NCBI RefSeq assembly: GCF_004360155.1
Contig: NZ_SAIS01000001.1
Location: 124,001 to 188,000, forward strand
DNA: 64,000 bases
Source: Paraglaciecola marina
GTDB lineage: Bacteria; Pseudomonadota; Gammaproteobacteria; Enterobacterales; Alteromonadaceae
Direction: 5' to 3'
How positions within the stretch are numbered: position 1 is the stretch's first letter; each line of letters begins with the position of its first letter. The notes under the pieces were generated by a model. That model searched no databases. It worked only from the letters and a program-made list of their open reading frames with translations, and had not been told where the DNA came from. A program made the translations under genes and the position numbers. This document shows positions 925 to 6,876 of the stretch, in pieces.

Positions 925-1051
925 ATTTTTTGAGAGAGCCAGTAATAATGATTTTTTGAAGTACAAAATTATTATTCTATTAGTGTTATTTAACCAGCCG
1001 AATTTGTTTCGGTCGCCAGCATCGTCTGGACTGAGAGTGTAGGAGAAAACC

Positions 1052-1876
1052 ATGAGTTTATTCGTAAATACCAACGTATCTTCTTTGAATGCGCAACGTC
1101 AGTTGTTTGATTCAGGGAATGCTTTAAGTACATCTTTTGAACGTTTGTCATCAGGATTCCGTATTAACAGCGCTGCAGATGATGCCGCTGGTCTACAGAT
1201 TACCGACAGAATGACTACGCAAATCCAAGGTCTAAACCAGGCCGCACGAAACGCTAACGATGCTATATCATTAGCCCAAACCGCTGAAGGCGCGTTAGGC
1301 GAAGTGACAACTGCTTTACAGCGAATTCGTACCCTAGCAGTACAATCACAGAATGGTATTAACTCTTCTGCTGACCGTACGGCTTTGCAGAAAGAAGTCA
1401 GTGCCCTTAAAACTGAAATTACACGTATCTCAACTGACACACAGTTTGGGGGGGTAGATATATTAAAAGGTGATTTTTCTGCGACTTTCTTAGTAGGGGC
1501 CAATGCAGGTCAGACTATTGCTGTCGGTCTTACTAGAACTGATGGTTTTGGGGCTTCAGGCTTAGCTGTTAACGATACTACAGTACAAACTGAAGCCGGA
1601 GCCTCTGCTGCTTTGACTGCTGTTAGTGAAGCAATATCTGCCATTGGTGGTGTCAGAGCTGACCTAGGTGCTTTACAGAATCGTTTTCAGTCTACTATTC
1701 GTAACTTAACCAATATATCTGAAAACGTATCGAGTGCCAGAAGCCGAATCAAAGATACTGATTTTGCTACTGAAACAGCAGAGCTAACTCGTAACCAGAT
1801 TGTACAGCAAGCAAGTTTAACGGTTTTAAGTCAGGCTAATCAGCGTCCACAGTCAGCTCTATCTTTACTAGGTTAA
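1052..1876 (+). CDS. Flagellin 1 (274 aa)
   Basis: Filament subunit. The N-terminal D0/D1 region ([17 protein letters not shown], then [19 protein letters not shown]) and the C-terminal region ([20 protein letters not shown] ending [11 protein letters not shown]) are complete, with only a short variable middle around residues 150-190, so there is no D2/D3 domain. This length is normal for Shewanella and Alteromonas-type flagellins. The start has the ribosome site TAGGAG (1040-1045). It is closest to flagellin 4 (shared [20 protein letters not shown]). The variable Ser/Thr-rich stretch is the likely surface for nonulosonic acid glycosylation by the Maf protein encoded at 32-36 kb. Confidence 0.97.
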
Positions 1877-1915: not shown

Positions 1916-2030
1916 TGAGGCGTAGAAGCCAGGAGGTAGTGCTCTGGATTTAACGAACCGAGCAGTTGGGAGTTTTGCTCACTCTCTCCTAATAAAAGAG
2001 CGACCAGCCGGAGTTTACTCCGGCTTTTTT
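1916..2030 (+). ncRNA. Structured spacer RNA 1 with anti-Shine-Dalgarno loop
   Basis: After flagellin 1 the spacer holds a GGC-GCC hairpin (1919-1930) directly followed by AGGAGG (1931-1936), a GCTC/GAGC hairpin (1977-1980 with 1998-2001) whose loop contains TCTCCTAA (1985-1992), and a strong terminator. TCTCCTAA is the exact complement of TTAGGAGA in the ribosome sites of flagellins 2 and 3. It may be a 3'-UTR-derived small RNA, as no promoter is obvious just upstream. The 5' end is arbitrary. Shares its GCTC-loop-GAGC-terminator plan with the elements at 4601-4672 and 4847-4919. Confidence 0.45.
2006..2030 (+). terminator. Rho-independent terminator after flagellin 1
   Basis: Perfect 8-bp stem AGCCGGAG / CTCCGGCT with a TTTA loop followed by six T residues. 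It ends the flagellin 1 transcript and the spacer RNA 1. Confidence 0.9.
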
Positions 2031-2145: not shown

Positions 2146-2259
2146 CGAACGGCGACGTAGAAGCTAAATAATAATAAAAGAAAAGCTCTACATCTATTTA
2201 GGCAACTAATAAAAATAATAGCCAAATAGTATTTACACAAAAATCGTTAGGAGATTGAA

Positions 2260-3133: not shown

Positions 3134-3249
3134 CAATTGCGGGGGCAGGCTGCAACTTAGAAAACGAGGATAAAAATTGTTTGGACGGGGTGGTAGCCTC
3201 TAGGCAATTAAAAACGGTCGAATTGCAAAATGTGGGGACAGGCTGCAAC
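3134..3249 (+). repeat. Two imperfect direct repeats in the flagellin 2-3 spacer
   Basis: CAGGCTGCAAC occurs at 3146-3156 and 3239-3249, each preceded by a G-run (GGGGG and GGGGA) and by AATTGC. They resemble dispersed repetitive (REP-like) elements but no REP transposase is present. Function unknown. Confidence 0.5.
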
Positions 3250-3357
3250 CGACCGAGGGATATGAATTTATTAAGTATTATCAATGCGTTAAAACAATTT
3301 TTAGCGTGAGAAAACTTTGATTTAACAAGATCAGCCGAGGCTTTTTTTGTTAGATCG

Positions 3358-3451
3358 CTAACAGACGGAATAGATGCCAGGAGGTAGTGAGGTATTGAGG
3401 TAAAGGCCACCAACTCCGTCTGTCAGCTTGAGCATATGCTCACACTTTTTT
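3358..3451 (+). ncRNA. Structured spacer RNA 2 between flagellins 2 and 3
   Basis: A perfect 9-bp stem, ACAGACGGA (3361-3369) with TCCGTCTGT (3415-3423), closes a 45-base loop that carries GCC/GGC and the purine block AGGAGGTAGTG (3379-3389). The same block CCAGGAGGTAGTG occurs in spacer RNA 1 (1929-1941). The domain ends in a palindromic hairpin with a T-tract. The stem plus conserved motif argue for RNA function. It lacks the GCTC-CTCCTAA-GAGC hairpin of the other spacers. Confidence 0.4.
3429..3451 (+). terminator. Terminator-like hairpin before flagellin 3
   Basis: Palindrome TGAGCATATGCTCA (3429-3442), short loop, followed after CAC by six Ts. Weaker than the other spacer terminators because the loop is tight. 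Confidence 0.55.
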
Positions 3452-3608: not shown

Positions 3609-3632
3609 TCAGTGAATGGTTAGGAGATAAAA

Positions 3633-4490: not shown

Positions 4491-4672
4491 GAGAGGCCAA
4501 CCCAGGGCTATGCCCTAAATAAGCAATAATGGATTGTTGCTGTTTTATGCTAAGGAGGGCGCTATTTAGAAGTTAAGGAGTTTTCCTTAGCAATTACCAA
4601 GTTTGCTCCAACTCCTAACGTGAGCAAGTTGGTCGGTGTCATCCTTTCGAAGAGGGGGCACCGGCCTTTTTT
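4491..4672 (+). ncRNA. Structured spacer RNA 3a with anti-Shine-Dalgarno loop
   Basis: It begins around GAGAGGCCA (4491-4499). It contains AGGGC/GCCCT (4504-4515), two mutually exclusive stems sharing the arm TCCTTAGC (4584-4591) with GCTAAGGA (4549-4556) or TTAAGGA (4573-4579), then the 6-bp hairpin TTGCTC/GAGCAA (4603-4608 with 4622-4627) whose 13-base loop carries ACTCCTAACG, and a terminator. The loop complements nine bases of the flagellin 2 ribosome site. The 5' end is a guess, and it could be processed from the flagellin 3 transcript. Confidence 0.5.
4631..4672 (+). terminator. Rho-independent terminator of RNA 3a
   Basis: GGTCGGTG (4631-4638) pairs with CACCGGCC (4659-4666) through one G-U pair, with an inner ATCCT/AGGGG helix, then six Ts. 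Its stem covaries with the copy at 4878-4919. Confidence 0.85.
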
Positions 4673-4746
4673 CATAGTAAAAATATTAAGGCAAAATGAT
4701 TTCATGCCTTATGAAACAAGCAGTATTTCTGCGTTTTCTTTACATC

Positions 4747-4773
4747 TTAAGGTGTAAATTAAAACGCCGACTA
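4747..4773 (+). promoter_or_regulatory. Sigma-28-like promoter inside the flagellin 3-4 spacer
   Basis: TTAAGGTG (4747-4754), an 11-base spacer and GCCGACTA (4766-4773): 5 of 8 and 6 of 8 matches to the consensus with the correct spacing. Start of transcription would be near 4780, giving a stand-alone transcript of about 140 bases that ends at the terminator 4878-4919. Confidence 0.4.
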
Positions 4774-4779
4774 ACAGGA

Positions 4780-4919
4780 CTAAGAGTGTAGAAGTTTGGT
4801 TGAGAGGCCAGTATTCAGCTCTAACCCTGCCAGTCGGACAGAAACCTTTTTGCTCCATCTCCTAACGTGAGCAAGTTGGTCGAGGTTATCCTTTCTAAGA
4901 GGATGCCTCGGCCTTTTTT
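4780..4919 (+). ncRNA. Small RNA 3b with anti-Shine-Dalgarno loop
   Basis: Tandem paralogue of RNA 3a. It shares TGAGAGGCCA (4801-4810), the hairpin TTGCTC/GAGCAA (4850-4855 with 4869-4874) and the terminator. The 13-base loop contains ATCTCCTAACG, the exact complement of 11 bases of the flagellin 2 ribosome site (2245-2255) and of 10 bases of that of flagellin 3 (3619-3628). CCGACT (4767-4772) and AGTCGG (4832-4837) could close the 5' domain, although the former overlaps the promoter. The gene would be free-standing, between a promoter candidate and a terminator. Confidence 0.5.
4878..4919 (+). terminator. Rho-independent terminator of RNA 3b
   Basis: GGTCGAGG (4878-4885) with CCTCGGCC (4906-4913), an inner ATCCT/AGGAT helix, then six Ts. 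Two base pairs differ from copy 3a in a compensatory way (GGTG/CACC against GAGG/CCTC). Confidence 0.88.
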
Positions 4920-5348
4920 CTTTGTAAAACTCAATCTCAAATTTTTGTTTTACAAAACTAAGTAAGCATTTTATATGCCAATATTAATTAGGCATTAAAA
5001 TTATTAAGATGTTTTTCTTTAGCTACTCTCATCACCAAGAAAATACTGTTCTACAAAGAGTTTAACTATAAGTGTGTTGGTCATGCCGCCTATTCCTCCT
5101 AAAAATAATCTATAACTAAACATAAATAGAAGACTTCCAGAAAGGAATAAAAACAGAGTTTATACCTAGCTCAATTAATTTCTATCTGTGCGACTGATAC
5201 GTAAACGCTAATGAAATTTACTTCTTTAGCAGGCATATAATACAGGTGTATTAGTTCCTATATCTTTCTGTACGTTAATTAAAAGTATAATTAAAACAAT
5301 GAATTAATGCTTGAAAAGCATCTGGCAAAAAAAAATTAATAAAAAAAT
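4920..5348. other. AT-rich spacer upstream of flagellin 4
   Basis: About 430 bases of AT-rich sequence without a plus-strand gene. It holds a 10-bp inverted repeat TTTGTAAAAC / GTTTTACAAA (4921-4930 with 4947-4956) just after the RNA 3b terminator, a possible short minus-strand reading frame (5019-5084), and a run of A residues leading into the flagellin 4 promoter. No other feature is supported. Confidence 0.5.
5019..5084 (-). CDS. Possible 21-residue minus-strand peptide
   Basis: An ATG at 5084 is preceded on the minus strand by AGGAGG (5094-5099) at nine bases, an optimal ribosome site, and reads MTNTLIVKLFVEQYFLGDESS before TAA. It is too short for homology to be judged. The strong ribosome site in an AT-rich spacer is the only support, and it may be chance. 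Confidence 0.2.
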   Translation of the reverse strand: MTNTLIVKLFVEQYFLGDESS

Positions 5349-5552: not shown

Positions 5553-6377
5553 ATGTCTTTATTTGTAAATACAAATGTGTCTTCTTTGAATGCTCAGCGT
5601 CAGCTGTCTAATTCAGGGAATGCTTTAAGTACTTCTTTTGAGCGTTTGTCGTCTGGGTTCCGTATTAACAGTGCATCTGATGATGCTGCTGGATTACAGA
5701 TCACCGACAGAATGACCACGCAAATCCAAGGTCTAAATCAGGCTGCACGAAACGCCAATGATGCTATTTCATTAGCCCAAACCGCTGAAGGTGCATTAGC
5801 TGAAGTGACTACGTCATTGCAACGTATTCGTACTCTTGCAGTGCAATCACAAAATGGCATTAACTCATCAGCTGACCGCACGGCGTTGCAGAAAGAAGTT
5901 AGTGCTCTAAAAACTGAAATCACGCGAATTGCGACTGATTCACAATTTGGTGGTGTAGATATACTAAGTGGAAGTTTTTCTGCTTCATTCTTAGTTGGGG
6001 CTAATGCAGGCCAAACAATTTCAGTAGGTCTAACTAGAAGCGGTGGTTATGGGTCTTCTGGGCTATCTATTGGTGACACTACAGTGGAAACAGAAGCAGG
6101 TGCTTCTGCAGCTTTGACCGCTGTAAGTGAAGCTATTTCGTCAATTGGTGGTGTTAGAGCTGATTTAGGTGCATTACAAAACCGTTTTCAATCTACAATC
6201 CGTAACCTAACGAATATTTCTGAAAATGTTTCTGCAGCTCGATCAGGGATCAGAGATACTGACTTTGCTACTGAAACCGCTGAATTAACTCGTAACCAGA
6301 TAGTTCAACAAGCGTCTCTTTCAGTATTGAGTCAAGCTAATCAAAGACCACAATCTGCATTATCGCTATTAGGCTAG
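5553..6377 (+). CDS. Flagellin 4, probable major subunit (274 aa)
   Basis: Complete short flagellin close to flagellin 1. The ATG at 5553 is chosen over an in-frame GTG at 5532 because it gives the conserved N-terminus [13 protein letters not shown] and follows AGGAGG at five bases. It has the best sigma-28 promoter. One oddity: the conserved Arg in the C-terminal ARSRI(R/K)DTDFA motif, present in flagellins 1, 2, 3 and 5, is Gly here (ARSGIRD). The variable region (residues 150-190) is Gly/Ser/Thr-rich and a likely glycosylation surface. Confidence 0.97.
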
Positions 6378-6410
6378 ACCTAGTTTAAGCGATATGTAAA
6401 AAGCTATGAT

Positions 6411-6435
6411 TGGCTACTATATTTTATAGTGGCCA
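6411..6435 (+). terminator. Stem-loop between flagellin 4 and flaG
   Basis: TGGCTACTAT (6411-6420) pairs with ATAGTGGCCA (6426-6435) around an ATTTT loop, with one G-U pair. It is followed by TTTGTTCTCTT rather than a clean T-tract, so it is more likely a partial attenuator or a 3'-end stabiliser that keeps flagellin message in excess over flaG-fliD. Confidence 0.45.
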
Positions 6436-6459
6436 TTTGTTCTCTTAGAGGGGTGATTT

Positions 6460-6876
6460 ATGGAGATTAATTCGTTTCAAGTTGGCCAGAGTTTTGCTTT
6501 GCCAAAAGAGGATCTTGTTGTAGACAAAACGCAAACCCAATTGTCTCAATCAGAGTTGTCAGCAGAGAGTAATAACCAAACTAAAGTTCCGGTATTTTCT
6601 GCCGATAACCAAGTAGCACAGGATGAATATAGTCCTGAAAAGATTGAGATTGCGGTAACACAAATTAGTGAGTTTGTTCAGGCAAGTAGCAGGCAATTAA
6701 ACTTTTCTGTGGATGAAGATAGTAACAAGCAAGTTGTAAAAGTTACGGACGCAGAGTCTGGTGATGTGATTAGACAAATCCCATCAGAAGAAGTGTTGAA
6801 ACTATCTGAACGATTACAAGACTTACAAACTGAGGTTGGTACTGCAGTGGGTTTACTATTTAATAAGCAAGTCTAG
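6460..6876 (+). CDS. flaG: FlaG family flagellar protein (138 aa)
   Basis: FlaG proteins affect filament length and are found beside fliD in polar flagellates. The conserved C-terminal domain is clear from about residue 60 (LNFSVDEDSNKQVVKVTD, then VIRQIPSEEVLKLSERL), after a low-complexity Gln/Ser-rich N-terminus. It lies between flagellin 4 and fliD, the usual place in Vibrio, Shewanella and Pseudomonas. ATG preceded by GAGGGG. No promoter of its own was seen, so it is probably read through from flagellin 4. Confidence 0.93.
   Translation: MEINSFQVGQSFALPKEDLVVDKTQTQLSQSELSAESNNQTKVPVFSADNQVAQDEYSPEKIEIAVTQISEFVQASSRQLNFSVDEDSNKQVVKVTDAESGDVIRQIPSEEVLKLSERLQDLQTEVGTAVGLLFNKQV

Follow-up and report, generated by a model that had tools for sequence, protein, structure and literature searches.

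The spacer between the third and fourth flagellin genes of Paraglaciecola marina holds a conserved structured RNA whose hairpin loop is very likely antisense to second-subfamily flagellin ribosome sites. We consider it probable that this RNA regulates the second-subfamily flagellins fla2 and fla3 through pairing between the loop and their Shine-Dalgarno sequences, as a feedback that would set subunit ratio or timing. Since the loop is antisense to the ribosome sites of two of the four flagellin genes, the RNA probably helps to set the amount of each filament subunit. Within the window (the whole 64,000-nt stretch of DNA that was analysed), the relevant features are the following.

1031–1045, forward strand: fla1 ribosome-site motif CTGAGAGTGTAGGAG, common to the fla1 leader and the RNA 5' domain
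1052–1876, forward strand: flagellin 1 (fla1), first subfamily, 78% to fla2
1977–2001, forward strand: hairpin of related form downstream of fla1, with CTCTCTCCTAAT in its loop, then a terminator at 2006–2025
2245–2255, forward strand: proposed target in the fla2 ribosome site, CGTTAGGAGAT, complementary to 11 nt of the loop
2260–3087, forward strand: flagellin 2 (fla2), second subfamily
3619–3628, forward strand: proposed target in the fla3 ribosome site, GTTAGGAGAT, complementary to 10 nt of the loop
3633–4457, forward strand: flagellin 3 (fla3), second subfamily, 91% to fla2
4602–4672, forward strand: first hairpin copy with its own terminator, in the fla3 3' region (TTGCTC 4603–4608, loop 4609–4621 CAACTCCTAACGT, GAGCAA 4622–4627)
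4765–4837, forward strand: conserved RNA 5' domain, outer stem CCGACT/AGTCGG and inner hairpin with GGTTGAGAGGCC, from a 66-homologue alignment and fold
4780–4794, forward strand: 5' strand of the 5' domain, CTAAGAGTGTAGAAG, matching the fla1 ribosome-site motif
4850–4874, forward strand: anti-Shine-Dalgarno hairpin (TTGCTC 4850–4855, GAGCAA 4869–4874) with the 13-nt loop CATCTCCTAACGT at 4856–4868
4878–4919, forward strand: intrinsic terminator, stem 4878–4913 and T-run 4914–4919; the stem covaries in the consensus fold
5553–6377, forward strand: flagellin 4 (fla4), first subfamily, 77% to fla2; leader CAGGAGGT, no proposed target

On re-reading the sequence, the hairpin, loop, complement and terminator proved to have been placed correctly to the base by the first-pass annotation. 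The loop segment ATCTCCTAACG is an exact complement of the fla2 site over 11 nt and of the fla3 site over 10 nt; its match to the fla1 leader extends over only 7 nt (TAGGAGA) and that to fla4 over 5 nt (AGGAG). Duplex energies were computed for the probe 4856–4870 against 54 gene starts, taken as the longest non-overlapping frames of >100 codons in the window rather than as annotated genes. With −16.9 and −15.6 kcal/mol, fla2 and fla3 ranked first and second, compared with −11.8 kcal/mol for the third-ranked start and a mean of −6.7 (sd 3.1), and the longest perfect loop match at any other start was 7 nt, in fla1. These ranks argue that the fla2 and fla3 matches are not due to chance. Across the 4.64-Mb genome, GTTAGGAG followed after 3–9 nt by ATG occurs at 17 places, fla2 and fla3 included, compared with six for the backwards pattern; six of the 15 such sites that were fetched precede an open frame of >100 codons, and two of these six are fla2 and fla3.

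The hairpin is the middle portion of a larger RNA that begins with the 5' domain (4765–4837) and ends with the terminator. Folding of positions 4765–4922 outperformed all 200 shuffled sequences (z = −4.15). The fold of the 5' domain itself is unsettled, because the consensus structure differs from the single-sequence fold and eight of the nine double-change pairs lie in the terminator stem. Rfam 15 returned no match at the gathering threshold for the window and five homologous loci, and a relaxed search gave five sub-threshold hits (E 1.4–4), on the other strand and far under threshold. The RNA lies outside Rfam and, as a whole, is a member of none of the tested families. An internal pseudoknot of the loop was considered and rejected, as the upstream complement within the same RNA averaged 4.17 nt over 66 sequences versus 4.48 nt in shuffles. 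The 3' half is present as a near-copy, a direct repeat (4602–4682 and 4849–4929, 86%) in the same spacer; in the first copy, CAA replaces CAT beside the loop core, which leaves 9 nt of pairing with fla2. Similar hairpins follow the first flagellin in 14 loci, among them L049, L050, L052, L053, L161 and L162.

Other features of the array were seen in passing. Upstream sites resembling the sigma28 consensus lie near 898 (fla1), 2082 (fla2) and 5349 (fla4), with two, two and one mismatches, respectively, and by the same consensus the region upstream of fla3 has no site as good. The fla2-fla3 spacer contains a direct repeat (AATTGCGGGGGCAGGCTGCAAC at 3135–3156, AAATGTGGGGACAGGCTGCAAC at 3228–3249). 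A second conserved element, which contains CAGGAGGTAGTG, occurs downstream of both the first and the second flagellin (1930–1941 and 3378–3389 in the window), and this motif is present in 68 of the 79 named loci (L060–L138); the copy after fla2 is flanked by arms (3357–3376 and 3408–3427) that are 80% complementary.

Scanning 84,980 species for the exact hairpin pattern, by which the loop core is fixed, yielded 79 stretches on 78 contigs. All 79 contain flagellin genes, and the hairpin mostly lies between a middle and the last flagellin. Record titles name genera of the Alteromonadaceae (some of which we take to belong there) or the family itself, apart from one that reads just 'Gammaproteobacteria'. 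A DNA similarity search of 60 relatives recovered the element from 18 of the 21 further genomes in the genus, and four additional genera gave strong hits (E 1e-21 or better). Of 295 family genomes, 75 (from 18 of 52 genera) were hit by a covariance model derived from an alignment of 66 of the 69 distinct RNAs (alignment A1). Based on match lists read by eye, 150 of these 295 genomes contain a close match to the flagellins (E up to 1e-70) and 119 have at least three; all 75 RNA-bearing genomes belong to the 119, and none of the 31 genomes with one or two matches carries the RNA. Applied to 394 genomes sampled across the order, the same model also matched four genomes of a second family; each of the 12 genomes examined there has a pair of such flagellins separated by an RNA built on the same plan. 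A covariance model for this second family found all 12 of its own genomes; in the same place it also gives weak matches to the window RNA (E 0.006) and to two further RNAs of the Alteromonadaceae (E about 4e-7). It also weakly matches three further genomes: G107, G110 (behind its first flagellin) and G482. The comparative outcome that the first-pass annotation had named as a refutation, homologous loci in relatives without both features, was not observed; a single array-type flagellin is all that each of the three RNA-lacking genomes of the genus has.

Leaders of the successive flagellins differ by position. Across the named loci, first-flagellin leaders carry GAGAGTGTAGGAG in 41 of 51 cases, middle-flagellin leaders carry GTTAGGAG in 68 of 72, and last-flagellin leaders carry GGAGGT in 64 of 64 and GTTAGGAG in none of 64; because these classes were defined by motif, a few leaders are misplaced (four of the 51 'first' leaders contain GTTAGGAG, and the first middle leader of locus L155 was entered as a first-flagellin leader in the covariation count). 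Conservation of the middle leaders is highest from −4 to +3 (68–72 of 72) and falls to 34 of 72 at −5 and 57 of 72 at +4, and this best-kept stretch is complementary to the loop core CTCCTAAC. In a larger genome set, GTTAGGAG was present in 115 of 122 middle leaders; four of the other seven are diverged (L047, L074, L110 and L123) and three look like mis-picked starts (L054, L105 and L187). Loop invariance is imposed in the 79-stretch set, whose selecting pattern fixes the core, and evidence for covariation within the core therefore comes only from model-selected and second-family loci. Of 18 model-negative loci that were read, 16 lack both GTTAGGAG leaders and a hairpin with a CTCCTAA loop, some of them having unrelated hairpins that contain CTCC. 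The other two (L161 and L162) have both features in the form found after fla1, with a 12-nt match between loop CTCTCTCCTAACT and the third-flagellin leader AGTTAGGAGAGA. As would be expected of a small RNA, the seed lies in a predicted loop, is complementary to the Shine-Dalgarno region of its proposed targets and is conserved together with it. At the level of sequence, the loop-leader match is conserved and specific to the second flagellin subfamily, which agrees with the earlier claim that this subfamily is matched and the main one spared.

Flanking bases of the loop and of the middle leaders vary together. The covariation set comprised 89 distinct hairpin loci after removal of 36 duplicates, nine of them without a middle leader, and the outer pair was counted for TAGGAG leaders only (38 first-middle, 79 last-middle and 12 second-family rows). 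Loop CTCCTAACG (G) occurs with leader CGTTAGGAG, that is, with C before GTTAGGAG, in all 32 first-of-two middle flagellins; loop CTCCTAACT (T) occurs with leader AGTTAGGAG (A) in five of six first-middle flagellins; and in the second family loop CTCCTATC faces leader GATAGGAG in 12 of 12. Loop CTCCTAACA, carried by two genomes (L155 and L187), is mismatched in both, since A precedes GTTAGGAG in their first middle leaders, although L155 has T at this position in its second one. When loop and leader were treated as a joint helix over 23 distinct rows, 80.9% of cells were paired (75.0% in shuffles), 18 cells were changed on both sides (9.1 in shuffles) and the covariation score was 0.124 (0.047 in shuffles, sd 0.013). 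Each of these three values was matched by none of 500 shuffles, and covariation dropped to 0.007–0.060 when the strands were slid. The same test gave no excess of double-change pairs (5 versus 4.4; 252 of 500 shuffles as high) or of further pair types (8 versus 7.0; 182 of 500 shuffles). Six of the 23 rows lack the outer, flanking pair, and 18 show no pairing at the two outermost positions. With the last middle flagellin as partner, only 28 of 49 distinct rows form the outer pair. On the flagellin tree, the T-bearing loop corresponds to two changes (possibly a single origin) and the second-family state to one, so the covarying cells stem from few independent events. Comparison of these sequences supports, to some extent, covariation in trans between the loop and the second-subfamily leaders.

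Where the RNA sits bears on how it would act. The first-pass annotation had called it a spacer RNA; it is a conserved structured RNA, but at most loci it belongs to the 3' region of the preceding flagellin. The distance from the preceding stop codon to the hairpin nearest the last flagellin could be measured in 67 of the 79 loci; its median is 194 nt (range 116–1536), and L049 and L121 are exceptions at larger distances. Because it stands right behind the preceding flagellin, the RNA may be a 3'UTR-derived or 3'UTR-acting element. In 12 of 12 second-family genomes the RNA matches the leader of the flagellin just upstream and begins directly after that gene's stop codon. L108 departs from the usual arrangement between a middle and the last flagellin, in that the next flagellin is 7.6 kb downstream; the middle flagellins of the same contig (Paraglaciecola sp. 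MB-3u-78) are in L116, and the interval of about 7.6 kb looks like an insertion into the array. The usual position behind the preceding flagellin lends some weight to pairing in cis, by which the 3' hairpin would fold onto the ribosome site of its own flagellin mRNA and so close the 5' and 3' ends of fla3 (in the second family, those of the first flagellin) instead of acting in trans. We regard that as possible though the less probable account: the RNA stands behind fla3, yet fla2 matches the loop better and covaries with it more strictly, and four genomes of the genus that lack a third flagellin (L049, L050, L052 and L053) retain the RNA about 900–1030 nt behind fla2. In two of these, L049 and L053, the gap contains no flagellin remnant, the RNA block is intact and the elements on both sides of the lost gene are kept. 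Its persistence where the third flagellin is missing indicates that the RNA unit is kept for itself.

With respect to transcription, a promoter scan ahead of the RNA revealed no convincing promoter of its own; the best sigma28-like site had three mismatches and was equalled in 32 of 300 shuffles. The candidate CTTAAG-N14-GCCGACTAA was rejected as a sigma28 promoter, given that GCCGACT belongs to the conserved stem, that the −35 part is not conserved and that 32 of 300 shuffles equal it. A terminator at 4631–4672 precedes the second hairpin copy, which therefore needs read-through or an unseen promoter.

The earlier reading was incomplete in that it overlooked the 5' domain with its fla1-leader motif, the near-copy of the hairpin at 4602–4682 and the hairpin after fla1, as well as the 3'-region location. 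One strand of the domain, GAGAGTGTAG, is nearly invariant (GAGAGTGTAGAAG in 46 of 79 loci) and its partner strand varies. The 15-base motif CTRAGAGTGTAGRAG has exactly two mismatch-free sites in the genome, the fla1 ribosome site and the RNA, and 18 further sites at two mismatches. One could suppose from this that the domain is a decoy, which mimics the fla1 ribosome-site motif and titrates a factor acting there, and that the anti-Shine-Dalgarno loop is secondary. The long invariant stretches are in keeping with such a role, and the domain can occur apart from the hairpin: L121 has three tandem 5' domains (near 6140–6700), only the last with an anti-Shine-Dalgarno hairpin and terminator, one copy in G018 (L027) has no hairpin, and L156 keeps the domain and lacks both the hairpin and GTTAGGAG leaders. 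Furthermore, the three same-genus species without the RNA all have a changed fla1 leader (GAAAATGTAGGAG, with GAAAATG for GAGAGTG), although these three may represent one shared ancestral loss. We nonetheless find a decoy doubtful as the primary function, since it leaves both the conservation of GTTAGGAG and the covariation in trans unexplained, and we know of no factor for the fla1 ribosome-site motif. A CsrA sponge looks doubtful for the domain, because its GGA is not conserved (by eye, AACAGGAC becomes AACAGAAC or AACAAGAC in several homologues), but the upstream part of the first copy does contain several GGA. Compared with CsrB/RsmZ-type sponges (Aln1a-c of Alteromonas; PMC5864184), the 5' domain, tandem in L121, has a possible likeness in titration and differs in having no conserved GGA.

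The second family offers a parallel, as its RNA bears TAGGAGGCTCA from the leader of the second flagellin in 12 of 12 genomes (CTTAGGAGGCTCA in 10 of 12). In both families, then, the RNA combines a loop antisense to one flagellin with a copy of a leader motif from another. By eye, GTTCAA/GTTCAG repeats are also present in the RNA region and the second-flagellin leader of the second-family loci (L199–L210), several of them apparently borne on loops. That the motif copy serves as a decoy is a guess. We tentatively raise the possibility of a two-armed RNA of flagellin choice, in which one arm would silence the second subfamily through the anti-Shine-Dalgarno loop and the other would mimic a ribosome site of the opposite kind and so free that flagellin from a regulator. 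The mimicked site would perhaps be that of fla1 in Alteromonadaceae and, no more certainly, that of the second flagellin in the second family. If this were true, one RNA would shift the filament between subunit types, and flagellin genes would control each other via their 3' ends, a new wiring found in two families with different sequences.

The RNA could also be an ordinary structured 3'UTR that just terminates or stabilizes the flagellin mRNA: the terminator is strong and its stem holds eight of the nine double-change pairs, but a terminator needs no conserved loop that matches second-subfamily leaders only, and we consider this explanation unlikely. It is very improbable that the spacer is the relic (leader and terminator) of a deleted flagellin gene with ordinary anti-Shine-Dalgarno similarity, as the domain motif common to a flagellin leader and the TAGGAGGCTCA of all 12 second-family RNAs could suggest, in view of the conservation in two families, the near-invariant loop, the covariation and the specificity relative to 52 other gene starts.

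By analogy, the flagellin-array RNA may work like regulatory RNAs that block Shine-Dalgarno sequences and like the FliX feedback RNA of E. coli. An example of the former is RNAIII of Staphylococcus aureus, a small RNA with an anti-Shine-Dalgarno hairpin loop, whose pyrimidine-rich loop covers the Shine-Dalgarno sequence of several unlinked targets. The RNA described here has the same type of loop; it differs in sitting within the array that it apparently regulates and in that its loop tracks the flanking bases of the targets. FliX derives from the fliC 3'UTR, and its overexpression lowers flagellin and fliC mRNA, for which negative feedback was proposed (PMC10578931). Our RNA shares with FliX the location in the 3' region of a flagellin gene. 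According to the same paper, FliX pairs inside coding sequences, including those of ribosomal-protein mRNAs (PMC10578931), whereas a scan of leaders places the complement here in the leaders. Also unlike FliX as portrayed there, the RNA has a fixed hairpin loop, an additional upstream domain and the Shine-Dalgarno regions of paralogous flagellins as its matches. Flagellar small RNAs are likewise described in Campylobacter jejuni (CJnc230/FlmE and CJnc170/FlmR), one of them encoded downstream of flgE and processed from its mRNA (PMC11187230). Compared by description, they differ from the array RNA in that flgM and a flagella-interaction regulator, and not the ribosome sites of flagellins, are reported as their direct targets (PMC11187230). 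We found no description of this RNA among open-licence papers.

Taken as a regulator of fla2 and fla3, the structured RNA would arise from the 3' region behind second-subfamily flagellins, presumably by transcription and separate release. Its hairpin would display CUCCUAACG in the 13-nt loop and form 8–11 bp with the ribosome sites of the fla2 and fla3 mRNAs, which should block their translation; fla1 and fla4, with different leaders, would be spared. Because the RNA sits in the fla3 3' region, the predicted effect is negative feedback and cross-talk inside the second subfamily, which may set the ratio or the timing of subunits. More than one flagellin is present in about half of all flagellated species, for reasons that are mostly unknown (PMC6299084). 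Here, the RNA would offer a concrete post-transcriptional mechanism for the flagellin subunit ratio in marine bacteria, many of them named strains. Its proposed target sites are already known, and nature supplies compensatory variants in the swaps CTCCTAACT/AGTTAGGAG and CTCCTATC/GATAGGAG.
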